Positions 554 to 33,540 of a stretch of DNA of 33,540 nucleotides are shown in pieces (position 1 is the stretch's first letter; each line of letters begins with the position of its first letter). Source of the stretch: an uncultured Bacteroidota bacterium. Lineage in GTDB: Bacteria > Bacteroidota > Bacteroidia > B-17B0 > Aurantibacillaceae. A model generated the notes under the pieces. The model had not been told where the DNA came from. It saw only the letters and a program-made list of their open reading frames with translations, and did not search any database. The DNA lies in the NCBI GenBank assembly GCA_903928655.1, contig CAIYSA010000272.1, positions 1-33,540 on the forward strand, read 5' to 3'. The translations under genes and the position numbers were made by a program.

Positions 554-2914
554 TTATTTACACCCTGCGTCTCTGTAATCACTTTTAGCACTTGGATTAT
601 CCAATACTTGAAAAGACATTCTTGGTTCACCAAATAATTGACAGTAACGTTCAGGATTTTTTTCTTTAGCTTTATGCAATGCGTCACAAAAAGTTCTGCT
701 ATAAAACTTTTCAGGCAAATGAGATGCTATCGAAATATAACTAAACAATAAACCCTCATCAACATTCTCAACTTTTAAAAATGGCTCTAAAATATTTGAT
801 GAAAATTTATAGTCTTTACCCCGTGTGAAAGCATAAGCCAACTTTAATGAGTTTTGCCAACTTGCATCTTTAAAATCATAAAAACTTTTAATTTTTGTAA
901 TACAGCCTTCAATTAACGGTTCACTATTTTCTAGAGTATCTAGTGATTCCATAATTTTAAATTGCCACTCAATATTTAAACCATCAATTAACTTTTTCTG
1001 AATTTTAGTTTTATACAACGCGTCAATATCTTGTTGCATTTTTGCCTGCTGCTCCTTTGTTCCTAATGTTGTATCTAATGTAATAGAACTATACATTCTA
1101 TTATAACGAACAATGTCATTTGTTGGATCTAACTTTTCTAATTGTTTTAACTGCTCTAAATCGTCAAAATCAACCAAACTACTGTTAGCTAAATAATTGT
1201 AATAAATTTTATTATTTAAAAAATTAATGAACTTTGCATCATTAGGGATTTTTAAACTATCCATAATATCATCAGTGTACTTCTTTTCAACTTTTTTATT
1301 AAAAGCATATTCCATTATTTTAAATGCTTGTTGGGTTTTATTAGCTTTAATAGCTCTGTTAAATGAAACAGCAGTAAACTTTTGCTCTTTATTACCGGAA
1401 ATATCATAGGTTACATCCATTACAATTTGTGCAAAACGCTCCTTAGCCAATACTGGCTCAAGTTCTTTTAACATCTTAGTATCTGCATTTAGCTTCTTTG
1501 TTGCCTTATCTTTCCCTAATTTAACTAGCTCAGCATATTTACCATCTTCTAATTCGAGTTCAAATAAATTCCACGAATCTTTAGTTTCGATAATTGGCGT
1601 TATTTTATTATTCTGCATGCTTTGCAAAACAGCTGTTACACTTTCTGCCCGTTTCCTTTGCAACTTTGCATTTGCAACAGCATCTCCTTCAATAGATGAA
1701 TATGCGTATATATACAAACCATCAATGATAAAATCAGGTTCATTCATTGCTTTAATAAACGGTTGAACATCTTCCGTTTTAAATTCAGATTTATTTTTTT
1801 CGAAAGGGATTGTGAAATTTAATATTGAACTTTCTGAACGAGGCTCAAATGGAGGATTTAAACCAACTGTTGAATCTGCTGGAATTAAACCAATTGGCGT
1901 ATTACTTTCCTGATCTCCCTTTTCAAGATAACTACGCATAATAGTTTTGCAAACATGTCCATCTTGAATTACAATTAAATTTAATTCATATGGGCCTTTA
2001 ATTTTAGAATTAAGTTTACCCATTTCAACTTTTAGATTATTGATTTTAATTTTCTTTTTTGCTTTTGGATCTGCTTTAATTAAGTTTTTAGCAAATAAAT
2101 TATCTTTTGTAATTACTTTTTGCATTATGCCTTTATTCTGCAAATTATTATCTAAAATATTATAATCTGCTTTTTCGTATTGTGCTCTTTGAACAACATC
2201 AACAGCCAATCCATCTTTCGGCTTTTTCAGTATCCTTTTTAAATCTTTGAGATTGGCATATTCCAAATAAATTTTTCCATTTTCTACAATTAATCCTTTT
2301 TGTAAGATATCATAATTTTTCCATTTATCGCAAGTTTTACAAGACTTAGCATCTGCAGTTAATAGCTTTTTAGATTTTGTGTTAAATGGAACATCTAATT
2401 CCTTTTTCTTTTTTGCACCTGCATTAAAACTATCGTAGCCTCCAAATGTTGCAGTTGCATAAACTTTTTTCTTATCCTTATCCAACATACAACTTATTCC
2501 AATCATCATATATTGAGCCTTTATTAAAACTTCTTTATCTTTCTTGTTATTTTCCCATCTTGTATAAATCACTTTTGCTACTTGCTCAGTTTTGTAATTA
2601 TCCCTTCCTTTTATTACTGCCGCATTCATAGCTAATTCTTCACCTTTATTAGTGCCACCAGCTTTAATTAAATTCTTCTTAACTTTTAAAGGATCAACTT
2701 TTGCTTGTCCAGAAGCAGTCATTTTTTTAGCATCAATTTCTGCCGCATTTATTAAAATTTGATTGACTTCGAAAGTATCTAAACCATTTTTTACCCTAAA
2801 TTTATTTAATTCAGTTACTAATAATCTTGGTAACTCATCAAGATTGAAATTTTCTTGACCTTGACCAATGTAAGCAGTAAAGTAAAAAAAGAAAAATAGA
2901 GCAAAATTCTTCAT
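554..2914 (-). CDS. Secreted CAP-domain protein with OmpA-like module and helical C-terminus
   Basis: A 786-residue exported protein. Residues 1-20 form a short Phe-rich signal peptide. Residues about 27-160 look like a CAP/SCP domain: an early LLVTELNKFR helix, then AQYMMIGISCMLDKDKKKVY and ATATFGGY, matching the family's closing strands. A CxxC pair (C192, C195) follows. Residues about 364-435 resemble an OmpA-type domain (FTIPFEKNKSEF, IDGLYIYAYSSIEGD, LQRKRAESV), a fold that in other proteins contacts peptidoglycan. The remaining 350 residues are helical with many paired positions and may be TPR-like. CAP domains in bacteria are mostly of unknown biochemical role, so the function is open; an envelope or periplasmic location is inferred. 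The start is the first Met before a good signal peptide. Upstream is pyk on the same strand, 151 bp away. Confidence 0.75.
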   Translation of the reverse strand: MKNFALFFFFYFTAYIGQGQENFNLDELPRLLVTELNKFRVKNGLDTFEVNQILINAAEIDAKKMTASGQAKVDPLKVKKNLIKAGGTNKGEELAMNAAVIKGRDNYKTEQVAKVIYTRWENNKKDKEVLIKAQYMMIGISCMLDKDKKKVYATATFGGYDSFNAGAKKKKELDVPFNTKSKKLLTADAKSCKTCDKWKNYDILQKGLIVENGKIYLEYANLKDLKRILKKPKDGLAVDVVQRAQYEKADYNILDNNLQNKGIMQKVITKDNLFAKNLIKADPKAKKKIKINNLKVEMGKLNSKIKGPYELNLIVIQDGHVCKTIMRSYLEKGDQESNTPIGLIPADSTVGLNPPFEPRSESSILNFTIPFEKNKSEFKTEDVQPFIKAMNEPDFIIDGLYIYAYSSIEGDAVANAKLQRKRAESVTAVLQSMQNNKITPIIETKDSWNLFELELEDGKYAELVKLGKDKATKKLNADTKMLKELEPVLAKERFAQIVMDVTYDISGNKEQKFTAVSFNRAIKANKTQQAFKIMEYAFNKKVEKKYTDDIMDSLKIPNDAKFINFLNNKIYYNYLANSSLVDFDDLEQLKQLEKLDPTNDIVRYNRMYSSITLDTTLGTKEQQAKMQQDIDALYKTKIQKKLIDGLNIEWQFKIMESLDTLENSEPLIEGCITKIKSFYDFKDASWQNSLKLAYAFTRGKDYKFSSNILEPFLKVENVDEGLLFSYISIASHLPEKFYSRTFCDALHKAKEKNPERYCQLFGEPRMSFQVLDNPSAKSDYRDAGCK

Positions 2915-2996
2915 AAGATTTAGTTTAGGATATTAACAAATATTGTAAAAAACCATTAAAAAATTAACATTTGAGTATTCACAAACTATTAACAAA

Positions 2997-3016
2997 TTAG
3001 CTTACGCTAAAGCTAA
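2997..3016 (-). terminator. Possible weak terminator hairpin after pyk
   Basis: TTAGCTT and AAGCTAA form a 7-bp stem around a 6-nt loop, about 50 bp downstream of the pyk stop on the minus strand. The minus-strand continuation is only TTTGTTAA, so the U-tract is poor. It may end pyk transcription or be a chance hairpin. Confidence 0.35.
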
Positions 3017-3065
3017 ATACCAAAATCAGTATAAAACACACTAAAAACAATAAATAAATTTATGA

Positions 3066-4496
3066 TTATTGAACGTAGCTCAACTTAAGCATATTAGTTC
3101 TGCCTTTTTCTTTCATTGGCATACTTGCTAAATTTATTACCAAATCATCCGCTTTTACAAAACCACCATCTTTAATATATTCTTTTAAATCATTAATGGT
3201 GTCGTCTGTGCTTTCATATTTATCGTAATAAAAACCTCGAACTCCCCATACTAAACTTAATGCATTTAACAAGGTTTGATTATCTGTAAATATGTAAATG
3301 TTTGCTTTTGGCCTATGACTACTCAATTTAAAAGCAGTATAACCACTATGTGTCATTGATACTATTGCCGTTACACCAGCTTGTTTTGCCATTACACTTG
3401 CGTTATAACAAATACTATCGGTAACATAAGTTACTGTTTTTAATTCTGGCTCATGCTCTTTGTAATAAATACGATCGTCGTTTTCAATTTCTGTGATAAT
3501 TCGACGCATGTATTCAATTACTTTAACAGGATATCGTCCTACTGAAGTTTCTGCACTCAACATAACTGCATCTGCTCCATCTAAAACTGCATTTGCTACA
3601 TCATTAACCTCCGCTCTTGTTGGTGTATAACTTGTAATCATACTTTCCATCATTTGTGTAGCAATAATAACAGGTTTAGAGGCAATTAAACATTTACTTA
3701 CAATCATTTTTTGCAATAAAGGCACTTGCTCCATAGGCATTTCAACTCCTAAATCTCCACGTGCTACCATTACTCCATCCGTTACTTCAATAATTTTATC
3801 AATTTCTTTTATTGCTTCTGGTTTTTCAATTTTTGCAATAACACGAGCATGTTTGTTTTTTGAACGGATAATATCTTTCAATTCAATAATATCAGTTACA
3901 CTTCGTACAAAAGATAAACCAACCCATTCAAAATTATTTTCTAAGGCAAAATCTAAATCACGTAAATCTTTTAAAGTTAAGCATGGTAAAGAAATTTTTG
4001 TATTTGGTAAATTAACTCCTTTTTTAGAAGATAAAATTCCACCAGCAATTATTAATGCACGAACTTCATCCTTACGATTTGTATCAATTACTTTTAAAGT
4101 TATTTTGCCATCATCAATCAATACCAATTCACCAGCTGCAACATCTTGCGGAAACTGAGGATAGGTTATAAATATTTTTTCTGCTGTTCCTTCGCACTCT
4201 TTCGTTGTAATTACAATTTCTTCACCGTTTACTAAATCAACAGCATTATCTTTAACTTTACCAATTCGTAATTTAGGCCCTTGTAAATCCCCCAAAATAC
4301 CAACATTCCTATTTAGTTTTTTATTTAAAATTCTAACATTATCAACTACATGCTTAATTGGCTCATAATCACCATGCGAAAAATTAATTCGACAAATATC
4401 TAAGCCTGCATTAAATAATTCTTCTAGTACGACAATATTTTCTGTAGATGGCCCCATTGTGGCAACAATCTTAGTTTTGTTATAATTAAATTTCAT
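3066..4496 (-). CDS. pyk: Pyruvate kinase
   Basis: Catalyses phosphoenolpyruvate + ADP to pyruvate + ATP, the last step of glycolysis, in the cytosol. The 476 residues match the usual length of about 470-480. Diagnostic motifs run in order: TKIVATMGPS near the N-terminus, DICRINFSHG, LGDLQGPKLRIG, the catalytic-lysine segment VIAKIEKPEA, the Mg-binding ARGDLGVEMP, and TRAEVNDVANAVLDG followed by DAVMLSAETSVGRYPV. The small B domain lies between the two halves of the barrel, and the C-terminal domain with STDD...KADDLV completes the subunit. It is divergent from trmB, with a 98-bp shared promoter region containing a TACATTCG box on this strand 19 bp upstream of the ATG. Nothing is missing from the active site. 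Confidence 0.97.
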   Translation of the reverse strand: MKFNYNKTKIVATMGPSTENIVVLEELFNAGLDICRINFSHGDYEPIKHVVDNVRILNKKLNRNVGILGDLQGPKLRIGKVKDNAVDLVNGEEIVITTKECEGTAEKIFITYPQFPQDVAAGELVLIDDGKITLKVIDTNRKDEVRALIIAGGILSSKKGVNLPNTKISLPCLTLKDLRDLDFALENNFEWVGLSFVRSVTDIIELKDIIRSKNKHARVIAKIEKPEAIKEIDKIIEVTDGVMVARGDLGVEMPMEQVPLLQKMIVSKCLIASKPVIIATQMMESMITSYTPTRAEVNDVANAVLDGADAVMLSAETSVGRYPVKVIEYMRRIITEIENDDRIYYKEHEPELKTVTYVTDSICYNASVMAKQAGVTAIVSMTHSGYTAFKLSSHRPKANIYIFTDNQTLLNALSLVWGVRGFYYDKYESTDDTINDLKEYIKDGGFVKADDLVINLASMPMKEKGRTNMLKLSYVQ

Positions 4497-12704: not shown

Positions 12705-15173
12705 TTGTACAAAACAACACATATTTCAGAAATTTTAAACGCTAATTGTATTGGTAATTCAAACTATGAAATAAAACATTTACTTATTGATAGTAGACAA
12801 TTAACTGAACCTAGTTATACATTATTTATTGCTCTTATTTCTAAAAGAAACGATGCTCATCAATATATATTTAATTTATATCAAAATGGCGTTAGAACAT
12901 TTTTAGTCAATCACATTCCTGAAAATTGCATTCAATTAACTGAAGCTAATTTTATTATTGTTGAGGATACTCTCATTGCATTACAAAAATTAGCAACGTA
13001 TCATCGCAATAAATTCAAGATTCCAACAATTGGTATTACTGGTAGCAATGGCAAAACCATTGTAAAAGAATGGTTGTATCAATTACTTAAAAATGATTAT
13101 TCTATTTGTAGAAGTCCGAAAAGTTATAATTCACAAATAGGAGTTCCAATATCAGTTTGGCAATTAAATAACCAGCACACTTTAGCCATTTTTGAAGCTG
13201 GCATTTCCGAAGTTGGAGAAATGAAAATTCTGGAAGAAATTATAAAACCAACCATTGGAATTTTAACATCATTAGGAACAGCCCACGACGAAGGATTTGC
13301 AAGTATTGATTTAAAGCTTAAAGAAAAAATAAATTTATTTAAGCATTGCGATATTACTATAATTAATGCTTTATCTATCAATGTTAATTCGAGTGAAATT
13401 GAAACCATTTTAAAAAACTCATTCATTGTTTCGGTAGAAATAAATGCAAATTTGCAGATTTTAGAAATAAATTCTAACTTACATTCAACACAAATTAATG
13501 CCTTTTATAAAGAAAAAAACTGTTCAATAACAATTCCGTTTACTGATAAAGCAAGTATTCATAATGCTATTACGTGTTGGGCAACTTTATTACATTTAAA
13601 TGTTTCGAATGAAATTATTGAAAGTAGAATGCAAGGTTTACAATCTGTTGAAATGCGTTTAGAATTAAAACTTGCCAATAATAATTGCATTTTAATAAAT
13701 GACTTTTATAATTCAGATATCAATTCATTAGAAATAGCACTTCACTATCAAAAGCAACAACACCGTGGAGGAAAAAAGATTATTGTTTTATCAGATATTG
13801 AACAAAGTGGTAAACCAGCCAAGCAATTATATGAGGAGGTTTCTGCCTTACTAAATTTTTTTAAAATAGATATCCTAATTGGAATTGGGAAGGGTATTTC
13901 TCATCAAAAAAATAGTTTTAATGGTGAAAGTTACTTTTTCAACAATACAACTGATTTTTTAAATAACATAAAAACAGAATCAAAATTACAATTTCATAAC
14001 TCTATCATCCTATTAAAAGGAGCCCGCAGCTTTGGTTTCGAAAACATCAGTAAACAGTTTCAACAAAAAAGCCATGATACAATTTTAGAAATAAATTTAA
14101 ATAGTTTAATTCAGAATTTGAATTTTTACCGTTCACAAATAAGTAATGATACATTTATTATGTGCATGGTTAAAGCAACCGGTTATGGTGCAGGGAGTTC
14201 GGAAATTGCATTTACACTTCAGCATCACAATGTAAATTATTTGGCAGTTGCTTATACGGATGAAGGTGTAGATTTAAGAAAAGCAGGCATACATTTACCA
14301 ATTATGGTAATGAGCCCTGAAGAATCTTCTTATGATGATTTAATTGATTACAAATTAGAACCAGAGATATATTCGTTTAAAGTAGCGTATGAATTTATTA
14401 ATGCACTTCAAAACAAAGCTATTGCAGAGCCCTATCCAATTCATATAAAACTAGATACCGGAATGCATCGTTTGGGTTTTGAAGAAAAAGAAATTCCTAA
14501 ATTAATTGAACTTTTAAAAAGTGAAAAATCATTACATGTAAAAAGTATTTTTTCACATTTAGTTGGAAGCGATAATGCAGCGTTTGATGACTTTTCAAAT
14601 AAACAAATTTCACTATTCGATAAAACAGCAAGTCAAATAGAAAGTGCAGTAGGATATAAAACATTAAAACACATTTGTAATTCTGGAGCTATTCCTCGTT
14701 TTAAAAATGCACATTATAATATGGTGCGCTTAGGCATTGGCATGTATGGAGTTGGATTTAATACGATTGAAAAACAAAATCTTAAAAATATAAGCACTTT
14801 AAAAACACGTATTTCACAAATTAAACAGTTGCATGCTGAAGATTCGGTTGGATATAGCAGAAATGCTATTTTGACAAAAGAAACAACGATAGCAACTATT
14901 CCAATAGGTTATGCTGACGGCTTTAGCAGAAAATTAGGAAACGGTAATTTTAGTGTTTCGATAAATAATCAAACAGCTGTAACCGTAGGAAATATCTGTA
15001 TGGATATGTCTATGGTTGATGTAACAACTCTAAATTGCAAAGAAGGAGATGAAGTTATTATTTTTGAAACAAATGAACAGCTCAATCAATTATCAGTAGC
15101 AATGGAAACGATTCCCTACGAAGTACTTACTGGAATTTCTTCACGTGTAAAAAGAGTGTATGTGCAAGAATAA
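12705..15173 (+). CDS. murF-alr: Bifunctional UDP-MurNAc-tripeptide:D-Ala-D-Ala ligase / alanine racemase
   Basis: An 822-residue fusion typical of Bacteroidota. The N-terminal half is MurF, which adds D-Ala-D-Ala to the peptidoglycan precursor: P-loop GITGSNGKTIVKEW (GSNGKT at 113-118), then IFEAGISEVGEM and LTSLGTAHDEGF. The C-terminal half (from about residue 455) is a PLP-dependent alanine racemase, which supplies D-Ala: PLP lysine K490 in MVKATGYGAGSSEIA, HIKLDTGMHRLGF, and catalytic tyrosine Y717 in DSVGYSRNAI. One polypeptide therefore makes the D-Ala and, after Ddl, uses the dipeptide. There is no usable ATG: an in-frame stop at 12690 and no later Met before residue 173 leave TTG at 12705 as the likely start, giving the normal MYxxxHIS-type N-terminus. 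It overlaps the next gene by 14 bp. Confidence 0.95.
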   Translation: MYKTTHISEILNANCIGNSNYEIKHLLIDSRQLTEPSYTLFIALISKRNDAHQYIFNLYQNGVRTFLVNHIPENCIQLTEANFIIVEDTLIALQKLATYHRNKFKIPTIGITGSNGKTIVKEWLYQLLKNDYSICRSPKSYNSQIGVPISVWQLNNQHTLAIFEAGISEVGEMKILEEIIKPTIGILTSLGTAHDEGFASIDLKLKEKINLFKHCDITIINALSINVNSSEIETILKNSFIVSVEINANLQILEINSNLHSTQINAFYKEKNCSITIPFTDKASIHNAITCWATLLHLNVSNEIIESRMQGLQSVEMRLELKLANNNCILINDFYNSDINSLEIALHYQKQQHRGGKKIIVLSDIEQSGKPAKQLYEEVSALLNFFKIDILIGIGKGISHQKNSFNGESYFFNNTTDFLNNIKTESKLQFHNSIILLKGARSFGFENISKQFQQKSHDTILEINLNSLIQNLNFYRSQISNDTFIMCMVKATGYGAGSSEIAFTLQHHNVNYLAVAYTDEGVDLRKAGIHLPIMVMSPEESSYDDLIDYKLEPEIYSFKVAYEFINALQNKAIAEPYPIHIKLDTGMHRLGFEEKEIPKLIELLKSEKSLHVKSIFSHLVGSDNAAFDDFSNKQISLFDKTASQIESAVGYKTLKHICNSGAIPRFKNAHYNMVRLGIGMYGVGFNTIEKQNLKNISTLKTRISQIKQLHAEDSVGYSRNAILTKETTIATIPIGYADGFSRKLGNGNFSVSINNQTAVTVGNICMDMSMVDVTTLNCKEGDEVIIFETNEQLNQLSVAMETIPYEVLTGISSRVKRVYVQE

Positions 15174-30795: not shown

Positions 30796-33207
30796 CTATT
30801 TCTTAATTCTACTGTCAATATCCTCTTGTCTTAATTTTTGTTCAATTTGAATTTTCCCAAATTTATAACTTAAACTAAGACGAATTCTTCGTGTGTCCCC
30901 ACGTTGAGCGTAATAATAGTATTGATCTGACAATTTACTAGACATATATTGGTTCTCGGTATATAGTAAGTCAAATAGGCCAAGCGTAACCCCAAATTTT
31001 TCTTTAAAAAAGCTTTTATTTACAACTAAGTTAATTGCGCTGATAGGAGTATATATTTGAATAGCATCGTAAAATGGAGTTGCATAATACCCAGACAATT
31101 GTAGTTTAAATTTTTTAGGTAGTGAAAATTCAGCTCTGAGAGCGCCATAATACTGCCACGTTGCTGAATTAGCATTTTCGCCATTAATATTACTTCTAAA
31201 ATCATAGAACATTGCAGAAGAATATACTTGCAGATTAAACCATTTAATTTGTTTTTGAATAAAAACACTCAAACTATAATTATTTCGTAAACGAAAATTA
31301 AATGTAGTGTCAATATTAACTTTAGATTGATTTCTTGCGTATGTATACCAATACATAAAATCATTTGTACGATAATAATTAATACTGCCCGTAATAAAAC
31401 TATTATAATTATAATCTAGTGTTATGTCATGAGTGTATTGCGGTTTTATTGCAGGGTTCCCGACACTGTAATTTAATTCATCATTATAAACTCGAGCTGG
31501 GTTCATTCTGTTAAAGTCGGGACGATCAATTCTATAACTATATGCACCTGTGAGGGTATTTTTATCGTTTATTTTATAGTCTATAGTAGAGCTAGGGAAA
31601 ATATTTAAATAGCTTCTGTTCAAATTGAATCCTGATGTTTTACTAATACCATTTACATTTGTTTGTTCTGCACGAATGCCAATTGATACTCCAACTTTCT
31701 TATAATTTTTTGATATGGTGGCATAGGCTGCTAACACACGTTCCTTATAAGTGTAATTATTTTGAAGTGAAGTATCTCCAGTTAAATAGTGAAGACCATA
31801 ATTTGCGTCATTATTAATCGTGATAAAATTGCTCTTTAGGCCTGACTCCAGCGACATGTCATTTTTAAATATTTTTGTATAATCTATTTTTTGAAAAAAT
31901 ACTTTGTATCGGCTTGTTATATTTGTTTTGTAACTCGTTGGAAAAAGGATTTCGGAATTGCTACTGTCATAAAAATGATTCTCAACAAATTTTGAATCAT
32001 TACCTTTTACATCAACGTAATCAGATGAAAGTTGTAGTTGAGAACCTAGTGTGTCAAGTTTATGCTGAATATTTAAATTGACATTAGGAGTAGAGTAATT
32101 TTGTTTAAGTTCAGAGCGATACGTAAATGAATTATAGTTAAAAGCATTTCCTTCTAAAACATTAGTTTTGGCTTTTTGAACTGGGTTAGTCTTAGTGACA
32201 TTATCATTAAAATATAGTCCAACAATAGTTTTAGGTGTAAAGTCATATTCAATACCTCCATTAAAATTTGCAGCCTGCTGTGTACTAATAATATTTCCAT
32301 TTGCATTAAAAATGTTGGTACTACCAGTTGTATTAATTGTCCTGTCAAGTTCCGTGACATCATACATGTTTTGGTAACTATAACTCAAATTACCAAACAT
32401 ACTCAGTTTATTATTTTTATAATTCAGAGTAAGTACATTAAAAGATCTTCCTAATATCCCTTGACTATAGGATTCATCGATGCTGCCATTTATACCTTTT
32501 AATTTTGCCTTTTTAGTAACTATATTTATTAATCCTCCCATACCAGCTGCATCATATTTGGCTGGTGGGTTTTTTATAAGCTCAATTGAAGTAATTGTTT
32601 CAGCACTCATACCGCTTAAAATACTTGTCATTTGTACAGTTGACATCTGCTGAAGTCTTCCGTCCATTAGAAATCGAACTCCGCCAACACCATTAACTGA
32701 AACATTATTTTGCGCATCTACTATTACTCCTGGAATTTGCTTCAATAAGTCTAAAACAGTATTTCCTTTAGCAATTAGGTTATTTTCTACATTTAAAATA
32801 ACCATTCCTTTTTTAAATTCAACAGTAGGTTTAAAGGCTGTAATTTCTATCTCGTTTAGATTAATTTTACTATCCGTCAACGTTAAAATAGGTATCTCAA
32901 TAACTTGAGTACTATCAAATTCGATTTTGTCACTAAATAAAGTATTATAACCAACGCCAGATATCTTTAGAAAATATGCACCTTTATTAATATTTTCAAA
33001 ACAGTAATTGCCTTCTTGGTCTGTCATAACTCCTTTATATACTGTGCTATCATTGCTGTTAAATAATCCAACTGGTGTAAAGGGTACAGCAACTTTTAAA
33101 CTGTCTAGAATTTTACCTTTTATTTGGCATTGCGCAATACCAAAAAATGGCAGAAAAAAAATGATTGCAAATTGAATTTTATATAAAATGTACTTATTTA
33201 TTTTCAT
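30796..33207 (-). CDS. Outer-membrane beta-barrel receptor family protein (TonB-dependent-receptor-like)
   Basis: About 803 residues. I chose the ATG at 33207 (MKINKYILYK...) because it opens directly into a signal peptide ending FFGIAQ; an in-frame ATG at 33228 would add seven residues. After cleavage comes a CarboxypepD_reg-like beta-sandwich (about 25-110: IKGKILDSLKVAVPFTPVGL, GVMTDQEGNYCFENI). A plug domain follows (about 130-235: GNTVLDLLKQIPGVIVDAQN, FLMDGRLQQM, SIELIKNPPAKYDAAGMGGL, INIVTKK). The remaining part is a long beta-barrel with alternating aromatic strands ending SLSYKFG. This is the OMP_b-brl_3-type receptor common in Bacteroidota, usually energised by ExbB/TonB. The ligand is unknown. 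Hairpin repeats lie on both sides of the gene. Confidence 0.88.
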   Translation of the reverse strand: MKINKYILYKIQFAIIFFLPFFGIAQCQIKGKILDSLKVAVPFTPVGLFNSNDSTVYKGVMTDQEGNYCFENINKGAYFLKISGVGYNTLFSDKIEFDSTQVIEIPILTLTDSKINLNEIEITAFKPTVEFKKGMVILNVENNLIAKGNTVLDLLKQIPGVIVDAQNNVSVNGVGGVRFLMDGRLQQMSTVQMTSILSGMSAETITSIELIKNPPAKYDAAGMGGLINIVTKKAKLKGINGSIDESYSQGILGRSFNVLTLNYKNNKLSMFGNLSYSYQNMYDVTELDRTINTTGSTNIFNANGNIISTQQAANFNGGIEYDFTPKTIVGLYFNDNVTKTNPVQKAKTNVLEGNAFNYNSFTYRSELKQNYSTPNVNLNIQHKLDTLGSQLQLSSDYVDVKGNDSKFVENHFYDSSNSEILFPTSYKTNITSRYKVFFQKIDYTKIFKNDMSLESGLKSNFITINNDANYGLHYLTGDTSLQNNYTYKERVLAAYATISKNYKKVGVSIGIRAEQTNVNGISKTSGFNLNRSYLNIFPSSTIDYKINDKNTLTGAYSYRIDRPDFNRMNPARVYNDELNYSVGNPAIKPQYTHDITLDYNYNSFITGSINYYRTNDFMYWYTYARNQSKVNIDTTFNFRLRNNYSLSVFIQKQIKWFNLQVYSSAMFYDFRSNINGENANSATWQYYGALRAEFSLPKKFKLQLSGYYATPFYDAIQIYTPISAINLVVNKSFFKEKFGVTLGLFDLLYTENQYMSSKLSDQYYYYAQRGDTRRIRLSLSYKFGKIQIEQKLRQEDIDSRIKK

Positions 33208-33277
33208 TGAGTATCTTTTTATTCGCACATTTATTAAATCAGATTTAAAATTGCAATGACTATTTAGTGTTATATAT

Positions 33278-33285: not shown

Positions 33286-33340
33286 AAAAAACAATCCGAT
33301 ACAGTTTGTTTACATCCCCTTTATTTTATACTTTCATAAA

Positions 33341-33467
33341 TTTAGAAAACAGTGACAGCGTTTTTAGAGAACTAGCACCGTGATTTAGAAAACTGGTGCA
33401 GGGCTTTAGTGACCTCTGACAGCACTTTAGGAAACTCACACAGGGATTTATGGAACCCCTACCTCGT
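33341..33467. repeat. Degenerate tandem array with a 21-nt period
   Basis: Six units start at 33341, 33363, 33384, 33405, 33426 and 33447; the first is 22 nt and the rest exactly 21 nt. Five of six begin TTTAG (the last TTTAT), and the shared pattern is roughly TTTAG-N-RAAC-T-NNNR-CAG. The following palindrome (33468-33488) occupies exactly one more period, and TTTAG recurs in register at 33489. One frame would read as FRKLxQG-like heptads but contains stops in at least two units. No protein is encoded now. It lies upstream of the minus-strand receptor gene's promoter. Confidence 0.75.
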
Positions 33468-33487
33468 CCTCGTTTGCAACGAGGGCG
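33463..33487. repeat. Hairpin repeat, right copy of the 17-nt inverted pair
   Basis: CGTCCTCGTT (33465-33474) and AACGAGGGCG (33478-33487) form a 10-bp hairpin with a TGC loop and one G-T pair. The 17-mer CTCGTCCTCGTTTGCAA (33463-33479) is repeated in opposite orientation at 30744-30760. A short T-run (33488-33491) follows. Confidence 0.7.
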
Positions 33488-33540
33488 TTTTAGAGCTGCG
33501 TTTACAAAGCAAAAATATGGTTGTCTAGTCCTGAAAAAAG

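Follow-up and report, generated by a model that had tools for sequence, protein, structure and literature searches.

A diverged 21-bp repeat array beside an outer-membrane receptor gene of an uncultured Bacteroidota bacterium is probably an inherited, mobile minisatellite

Near the end of a contig from an uncultured Bacteroidota bacterium, short AT-rich sequences recur with an almost constant step of 21 nt beside an outer-membrane receptor gene, and the question is whether they are a device for controlling that gene, the remains of a coding sequence, or repetitive DNA with a history of its own. The window analysed here is the whole of this 33,540-nt stretch, which is an entire contig of an incomplete genome (G000:C272:1-33540; CAIYSA010000272.1, assembly GCA_903928655.1). 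The array is probably a mobile, inherited, non-coding passenger, a minisatellite whose 21-bp units have diverged; most likely, it does not act as a switch controlling the receptor gene beside it.

The array spans 33341-33462 and consists of approximately six diverged copies of a 21-nt unit (Table 1). The first-pass annotation of this DNA had placed TTTAG or TTTAT unit starts at 33341, 33363, 33384, 33405, 33426 and 33447, all of which are borne out by the sequence. It had also counted five exact 21-nt steps: the steps are 22, 21, 21, 21 and 21, meaning four are exact, while the further periods it recognised at 33468 and 33489 do not stand as units. The self-match score of positions 33331-33466 at a lag of 21 is itself 21, whereas dinucleotide shuffles, each scored at its best lag between 12 and 30, averaged 6.2 ± 1.2 (sd), and none of the 2000 reached 21. 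The other lags from 12 to 30 score 1-8 in the window array, and lag 42 scores 16. Hence these are head-to-tail copies, beyond chance expectation, of a unit within the 10-60 nt range of minisatellites. Elsewhere in the window, a single open reading frame (ORF; 12705-15173) joins a Mur ligase middle domain to an alanine racemase.

Table 1. Coordinates of the array, its neighbours and the shared segment; positions are those of the window unless another contig is named
Feature	Position	Strand	Sequence or supporting match
Outer-membrane beta-barrel family gene with CarboxypepD_reg-like and TonB plug domains	30796..33207	-	Pfam PF14905, E 8e-80
Array unit 1	33341..33362	+	TTTAGAAAACAGTGACAGCGT plus one extra T (22 nt); 19/21 vs G080 unit 1
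Array unit 2	33363..33383	+	TTTAGAGAACTAGCACCGTGA; 19/21 vs G080 unit 2
Array unit 3	33384..33404	+	TTTAGAAAACTGGTGCAGGGC; 18/21 vs G080 unit 3; matched by profile R1 at E 5e-8 (not independent for the window, whose array contributed to R1)
Array unit 4	33405..33425	+	TTTAGTGACCTCTGACAGCAC; 17/21 vs G080 unit 4, 18/21 vs G017 units
Array unit 5	33426..33446	+	TTTAGGAAACTCACACAGGGA; 20/21 vs a G017 unit
Array unit 6, decayed or truncated, cut by REP element	33447..33462	+	TTTATGGAACCCCTAC; at most 15/21 vs any relative unit
REP-type palindromic element, outside the array	33463..33503	+	TCGTCCTCGTTTGCAACGAGGGCGTTTTAGA; 41 nt, 93% vs G007:C358
End of IS3-family insertion sequence; contig stops	33521..33540	.	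20/20 vs G000:C323, where IS3 transposase genes then follow
Near-identical 3.4-kb segment	L039 (JAFLBF010000021.1) 805-4220 and G013:C6 21780-25196		Found in two Bacteroidota families

The history of the array can be read through its relatives. A BLAST search of the window region against 31 genomes found an independent array in the same genus (G017:C32; E = 1.7e-15), comprising 11 in-phase 21-nt units and one partial unit, with a 42-nt alternation that constitutes a higher-order repeat (Tandem Repeats Finder score 333). A profile search of this genome and its relatives, as the first-pass annotation had proposed, recovered related arrays with the 21-nt spacing kept. With a two-unit profile, confident arrays in the genus were limited to three of 20 genomes, namely G000 (that of the window), G017 and G013, with one further array in another genus of the same family (G080) and one in another family (G282). 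Every related array has a 21-nt unit, with copy number varying from three in G013 and four in G080 to approximately six in the window, 11 in G282 and approximately 12 in G017. Window units 1-4 pair one-to-one and in order with units 1-4 of G080 (Table 1), with off-diagonal pairs matching at 12-17 of 21 positions; the units therefore differed before the copies separated, and the spacing has since been kept, bar the extra T of the window. Hence the proposal that the units had diverged while their spacing was preserved extends to G017, G013, G080 and G282. A comparison of 23 units from four arrays shows no variation at positions 2-4, 8, 16 and 18 and free variation at positions 13, 14, 19 and 21, and some positions carry three or four different bases.

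More distant searches added no members. There was no match to the array in phage and plasmid collections, none in Rfam up to E 1, and none to the exact two-unit pattern in IMG/VR. A looser pattern, TTTAGAAA repeated three times, occurred in 15 stretches of viral contigs, those displayed resembling unrelated local repeats; matches to the two-unit pattern in Clostridia, Tannerella and Niastella were isolated and chance-like; and a match in G004 was a terminator-like hairpin rather than an array.

The arrays also share a boundary. Those of G017, G013 and G080 end at a common 3' junction, AACTCTGACAGCGTTTCAG, after which comes a weakly similar stretch that forms a long imperfect hairpin in G013 (z -4.4) and G080 (z -2.6). 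In G017, G013, G080 and G282, the arrays have no terminal inverted repeats around them. The window has no such tail because a different element cuts the array first. The hairpin at 33468, apparently in register, and the further TTTAG at 33489, which had been taken for a continuation of the array, both lie inside this hairpin-forming element (single-stranded DNA z -2.2), which is found free of any array in G000:C78 and in G007. Copies of its palindrome, TCGTCCTCGTTTGCAACGAGG, are present on G000:C78 and on three contigs of G007 (C34, C218 and C358), often paired in inverted orientation, at a low copy number of three in the window’s genome and five in G007. In G007:C34, a remnant of a REP-associated tyrosine transposase (RAYT; L011 1364-1724) lies between inverted CGTC-containing palindromes that match the window element. 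The 80-aa ORF between this palindrome pair matches the corresponding NCBIfam family at E 7e-8, as a truncated copy with a score below the curated cut-off. Therefore, as a short dispersed palindrome that flanks a RAYT remnant, the element at 33463-33503 is of the REP type. It abuts the array as a separate element, and presumably inserted into unit 6, since the unit sequence is lost from 33463. In the published description of REP and RAYT elements (PMC3733652), no transposase genes were found flanked by CGTC-tagged repeats, whereas here the CGTC-containing palindrome does flank a transposase remnant; as CGTC lies within the stem of the palindrome, membership of the CGTC-tagged class is not claimed. 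The last 20 bases of the contig are the end of an IS3-family element, which is why the contig stops at 33540.

Evidence of mobility comes from another member of the array family. G013:C6 and G325:C14, from different families, have 3,417 bp in common at 99.94% identity, a segment containing an outer-membrane beta-barrel gene, an array, the hairpin tail and a 171-bp attC-like site, with the array positioned between the gene and the attC-like site. On one side, the identity ends at the attC-like core, GCCGCCAACCGTTAT, and the DNA differs beyond. A strict attC-like detector, with a background of one hit in ~1.8 Mb of sampled DNA, recovered this site together with another in G325. The G325 contig also encodes a tyrosine recombinase (L039 5774-6847) that resembles integron integrases, scoring 187 against the TIGR02249 cut-off of 265. 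A binning error in one metagenome assembly could conceivably explain the identity of the two segments, but the abrupt change to different DNA exactly at the attC-like core on that side favours cassette exchange, which would have been the route of transfer. Ends resembling attC also recur, less securely, in the G017 and G080 contigs; since the strict detector missed these weaker ends, the claim of exchange at attC boundaries is confined to G013 and G325. The claim of cassette carriage does not extend to the copy in the window, where the sequence showed no recognisable attC-like site. As in integron cassettes, the array-bearing segment ends at an attC-like core; the array itself is not an attC.

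The alternative that best survives is that the units are phased candidate sites for a cooperative DNA-binding protein, with TTTAGRRAACT cores on one face of the helix, that either controls neighbouring genes or organises the DNA. The unit is two helical turns long, its spacing is kept while linker positions vary, the same six positions are invariant in the 23 units, and the core TTTAGAAA is retained in the G282 array though the second half of the unit has changed. The setting of the arrays speaks against control of neighbours. In the window, the array does lie upstream of the receptor gene, as first described: it begins 133 nt from the first likely ATG, at 33207 as read from the sequence (the mechanically called ORF starts at a GTG at 33228), and the gene reads away from it. 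However, both genes flanking the array share a strand in G017, G013, G080 and G282, and the gene that the array follows differs between genomes: a hypothetical gene in G017, an outer-membrane gene in G013, a TPR/SpoIIE gene in G080 and a secretion-tail gene in G282. The product of the neighbouring outer-membrane gene in G013 shares only 34% identity with the receptor of the window. With neighbours not conserved and this protein so distant, regulation of the receptor gene by the array is not supported. Transcription factor sites would be expected at a fixed position relative to the genes they regulate; here, both neighbours and orientation differ between copies. A scan of the window end for promoters and terminators found nothing above chance. 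Furthermore, a confident array in only three of 20 genus genomes would be odd for regulator sites, and many 21-nt arrays of another genome, G171, have unrelated units, meaning one sequence-specific protein would not explain them. Overall, binding sites are an unlikely but not negligible explanation.

A period of 21 nt is also seven codons, and the arrays could thus encode, or once have encoded, heptad repeats on one of the strands. On the reverse strand, six related arrays can be read through without a stop in the frame SFL(K/N)xxx, and the G171 array L217 does appear to be coding (z 2.9; no stops where 4.6 were expected). A further comparison set the observed changes between units against random changes of the same type in all six frames: no frame of the G017 or G282 arrays had a synonymous excess outside chance, the SFL frame having nine synonymous changes against 9.3 expected in G017, and 12 against 11.5 in G282. 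Few stop-creating changes are expected in the SFL frame in any case. The window array carries a 1-nt insertion, and the FRKL-like frame, of which the first-pass annotation had imagined the array to be a fossil, contains stops. A coding origin of this array family was rejected on the six-frame test, and the heptad explanation is very improbable. Neither is there a signal of RNA structure in the G017 array (z 0.05). It is scarcely credible that 21 bp was kept for DNA bending through phased A-tracts: although the period is two turns, and the units contain TTT and AAAA runs, each of the five arrays analysed (the window, G017, G080, G282 and G149) has less AA/TT power at 10.5 bp than the mean of the column-permuted arrays. 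That the window array is a chance local repeat without relatives, as might be suspected from its absence from the output of Tandem Repeats Finder at low thresholds down to the minimum score, is refuted by the shuffles and by the homologous arrays in four other genomes, and the program misses it because the units are too diverged.

Among the closest described systems is BrickBuilt, a minisatellite-MITE of Porphyromonas gingivalis with a 23-nt unit, 19 copies per genome and IS5-like terminal inverted repeats, which has been assayed for promoter activity (PMC4596501). Both are found in Bacteroidota, are intergenic, have a short head-to-tail unit without spacers in which half the positions vary, occur at unrelated loci, and have a defined tail sequence. 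However, the present unit is 21 nt rather than 23, there are only one or two copies per genome, and the arrays of G017, G013, G080 and G282 are without the terminal inverted repeats of a MITE. Prokaryotic satellites (Subirana and Messeguer 2019; PMC6749651) are likewise bacterial tandem repeats, mostly short and either intergenic or coding, and a 21-nt noncoding class in Bacteroidota does not feature in the part of that survey consulted. This array class did not appear in literature searches on tandem repeats of 21 bp or of Bacteroidetes.

The 21-nt period itself may extend beyond this family of sequences. A search of 395 genomes of the phylum for three TTTARRAA-like cores with free spacing of 18-24 nt yielded 52 tabulated matches, counted after repeats of one array had been collapsed by hand, and both spacings were 21 nt in 11 of them, with every other combination occurring at most four times. 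Within 400 kb of G171, picked because one such array was already known there, the period was 21 in 15 of the 18 arrays with a period of 18-24 nt and at least four copies, and these arrays had many unrelated unit sequences. The flanks of other selected loci, which were not used for the selection, again often contained arrays of 21 nt; samples from other genomes had few arrays of any kind. No excess at lags 7 or 14 pointed to an underlying 7-nt unit. These counts are biased by the selection of loci and by searches that favour indel-free repeats, and some of the arrays may be coding, and therefore the over-representation of 21 nt among noncoding arrays of some Bacteroidota is treated as a lead. 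A tentative extension, with the balance tilted against it, is that some Bacteroidota have a widespread and undescribed class of noncoding arrays locked to exactly 21 bp, with many unrelated units, made or maintained by a process or a protein able to count two helical turns, of which the window would be a sparse outlier.

Further arrays of this and related periods were observed. The G171:C4 stretch (L202-L221; positions 1-400000) contains many arrays of 21, 42, 63 and 84 nt, mostly outside long ORFs and with few indels, and other periods in the 18-24 nt range are rare there. Two of its 21-nt arrays apparently switch strand midway (L206 6393-6634; L211 11660-11841), the second half resembling the reverse complement of the first. 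In G203, G262 and G021 (L172, L174 and L175), an orthologous 21-nt array lies upstream of an X-Pro dipeptidyl-peptidase-like gene, with ~94-95% identity across the three species and no indels in the array, and arrays ~69% similar to it occur at other loci of that genus.

For the window array, an inherited passenger minisatellite would have arisen as follows. The unit TTTAGRRAACTNNNACAGNNN would have been tandemly duplicated long ago, with later rounds of 42 bp in G017. In this lineage, the 3' junction of the array is conserved, and a hairpin tail follows it in at least two genomes. Unit order and 21-bp phase were maintained as the arrays were inherited, and the arrays probably spread partly as passengers of mobile DNA, as seen for one integron-type cassette of outer-membrane gene, array and attC-like site. 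The copy in the window would have been broken by the REP element and the IS3-family element, and it presumably has no specific function there. Two observations count against the passenger explanation. Firstly, the spacing is near-perfect in all five arrays, when neutral repeats so diverged might have gathered more indels, which hints at constraint. Secondly, several unit positions are invariant among the 23 units while others carry three or four bases, although shared ancestry inflates this conservation.

The locus thereby provides a defined, phase-kept minisatellite, the history of which can be traced unit by unit through its relatives, together with one case in which an array, embedded in a cassette-like segment of near-identical sequence, is found in two families. 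Should the preference of some Bacteroidota for 21 bp prove to be genome-wide, how repeats of exactly two helical turns originate in bacteria, or are protected there, would become a testable question.
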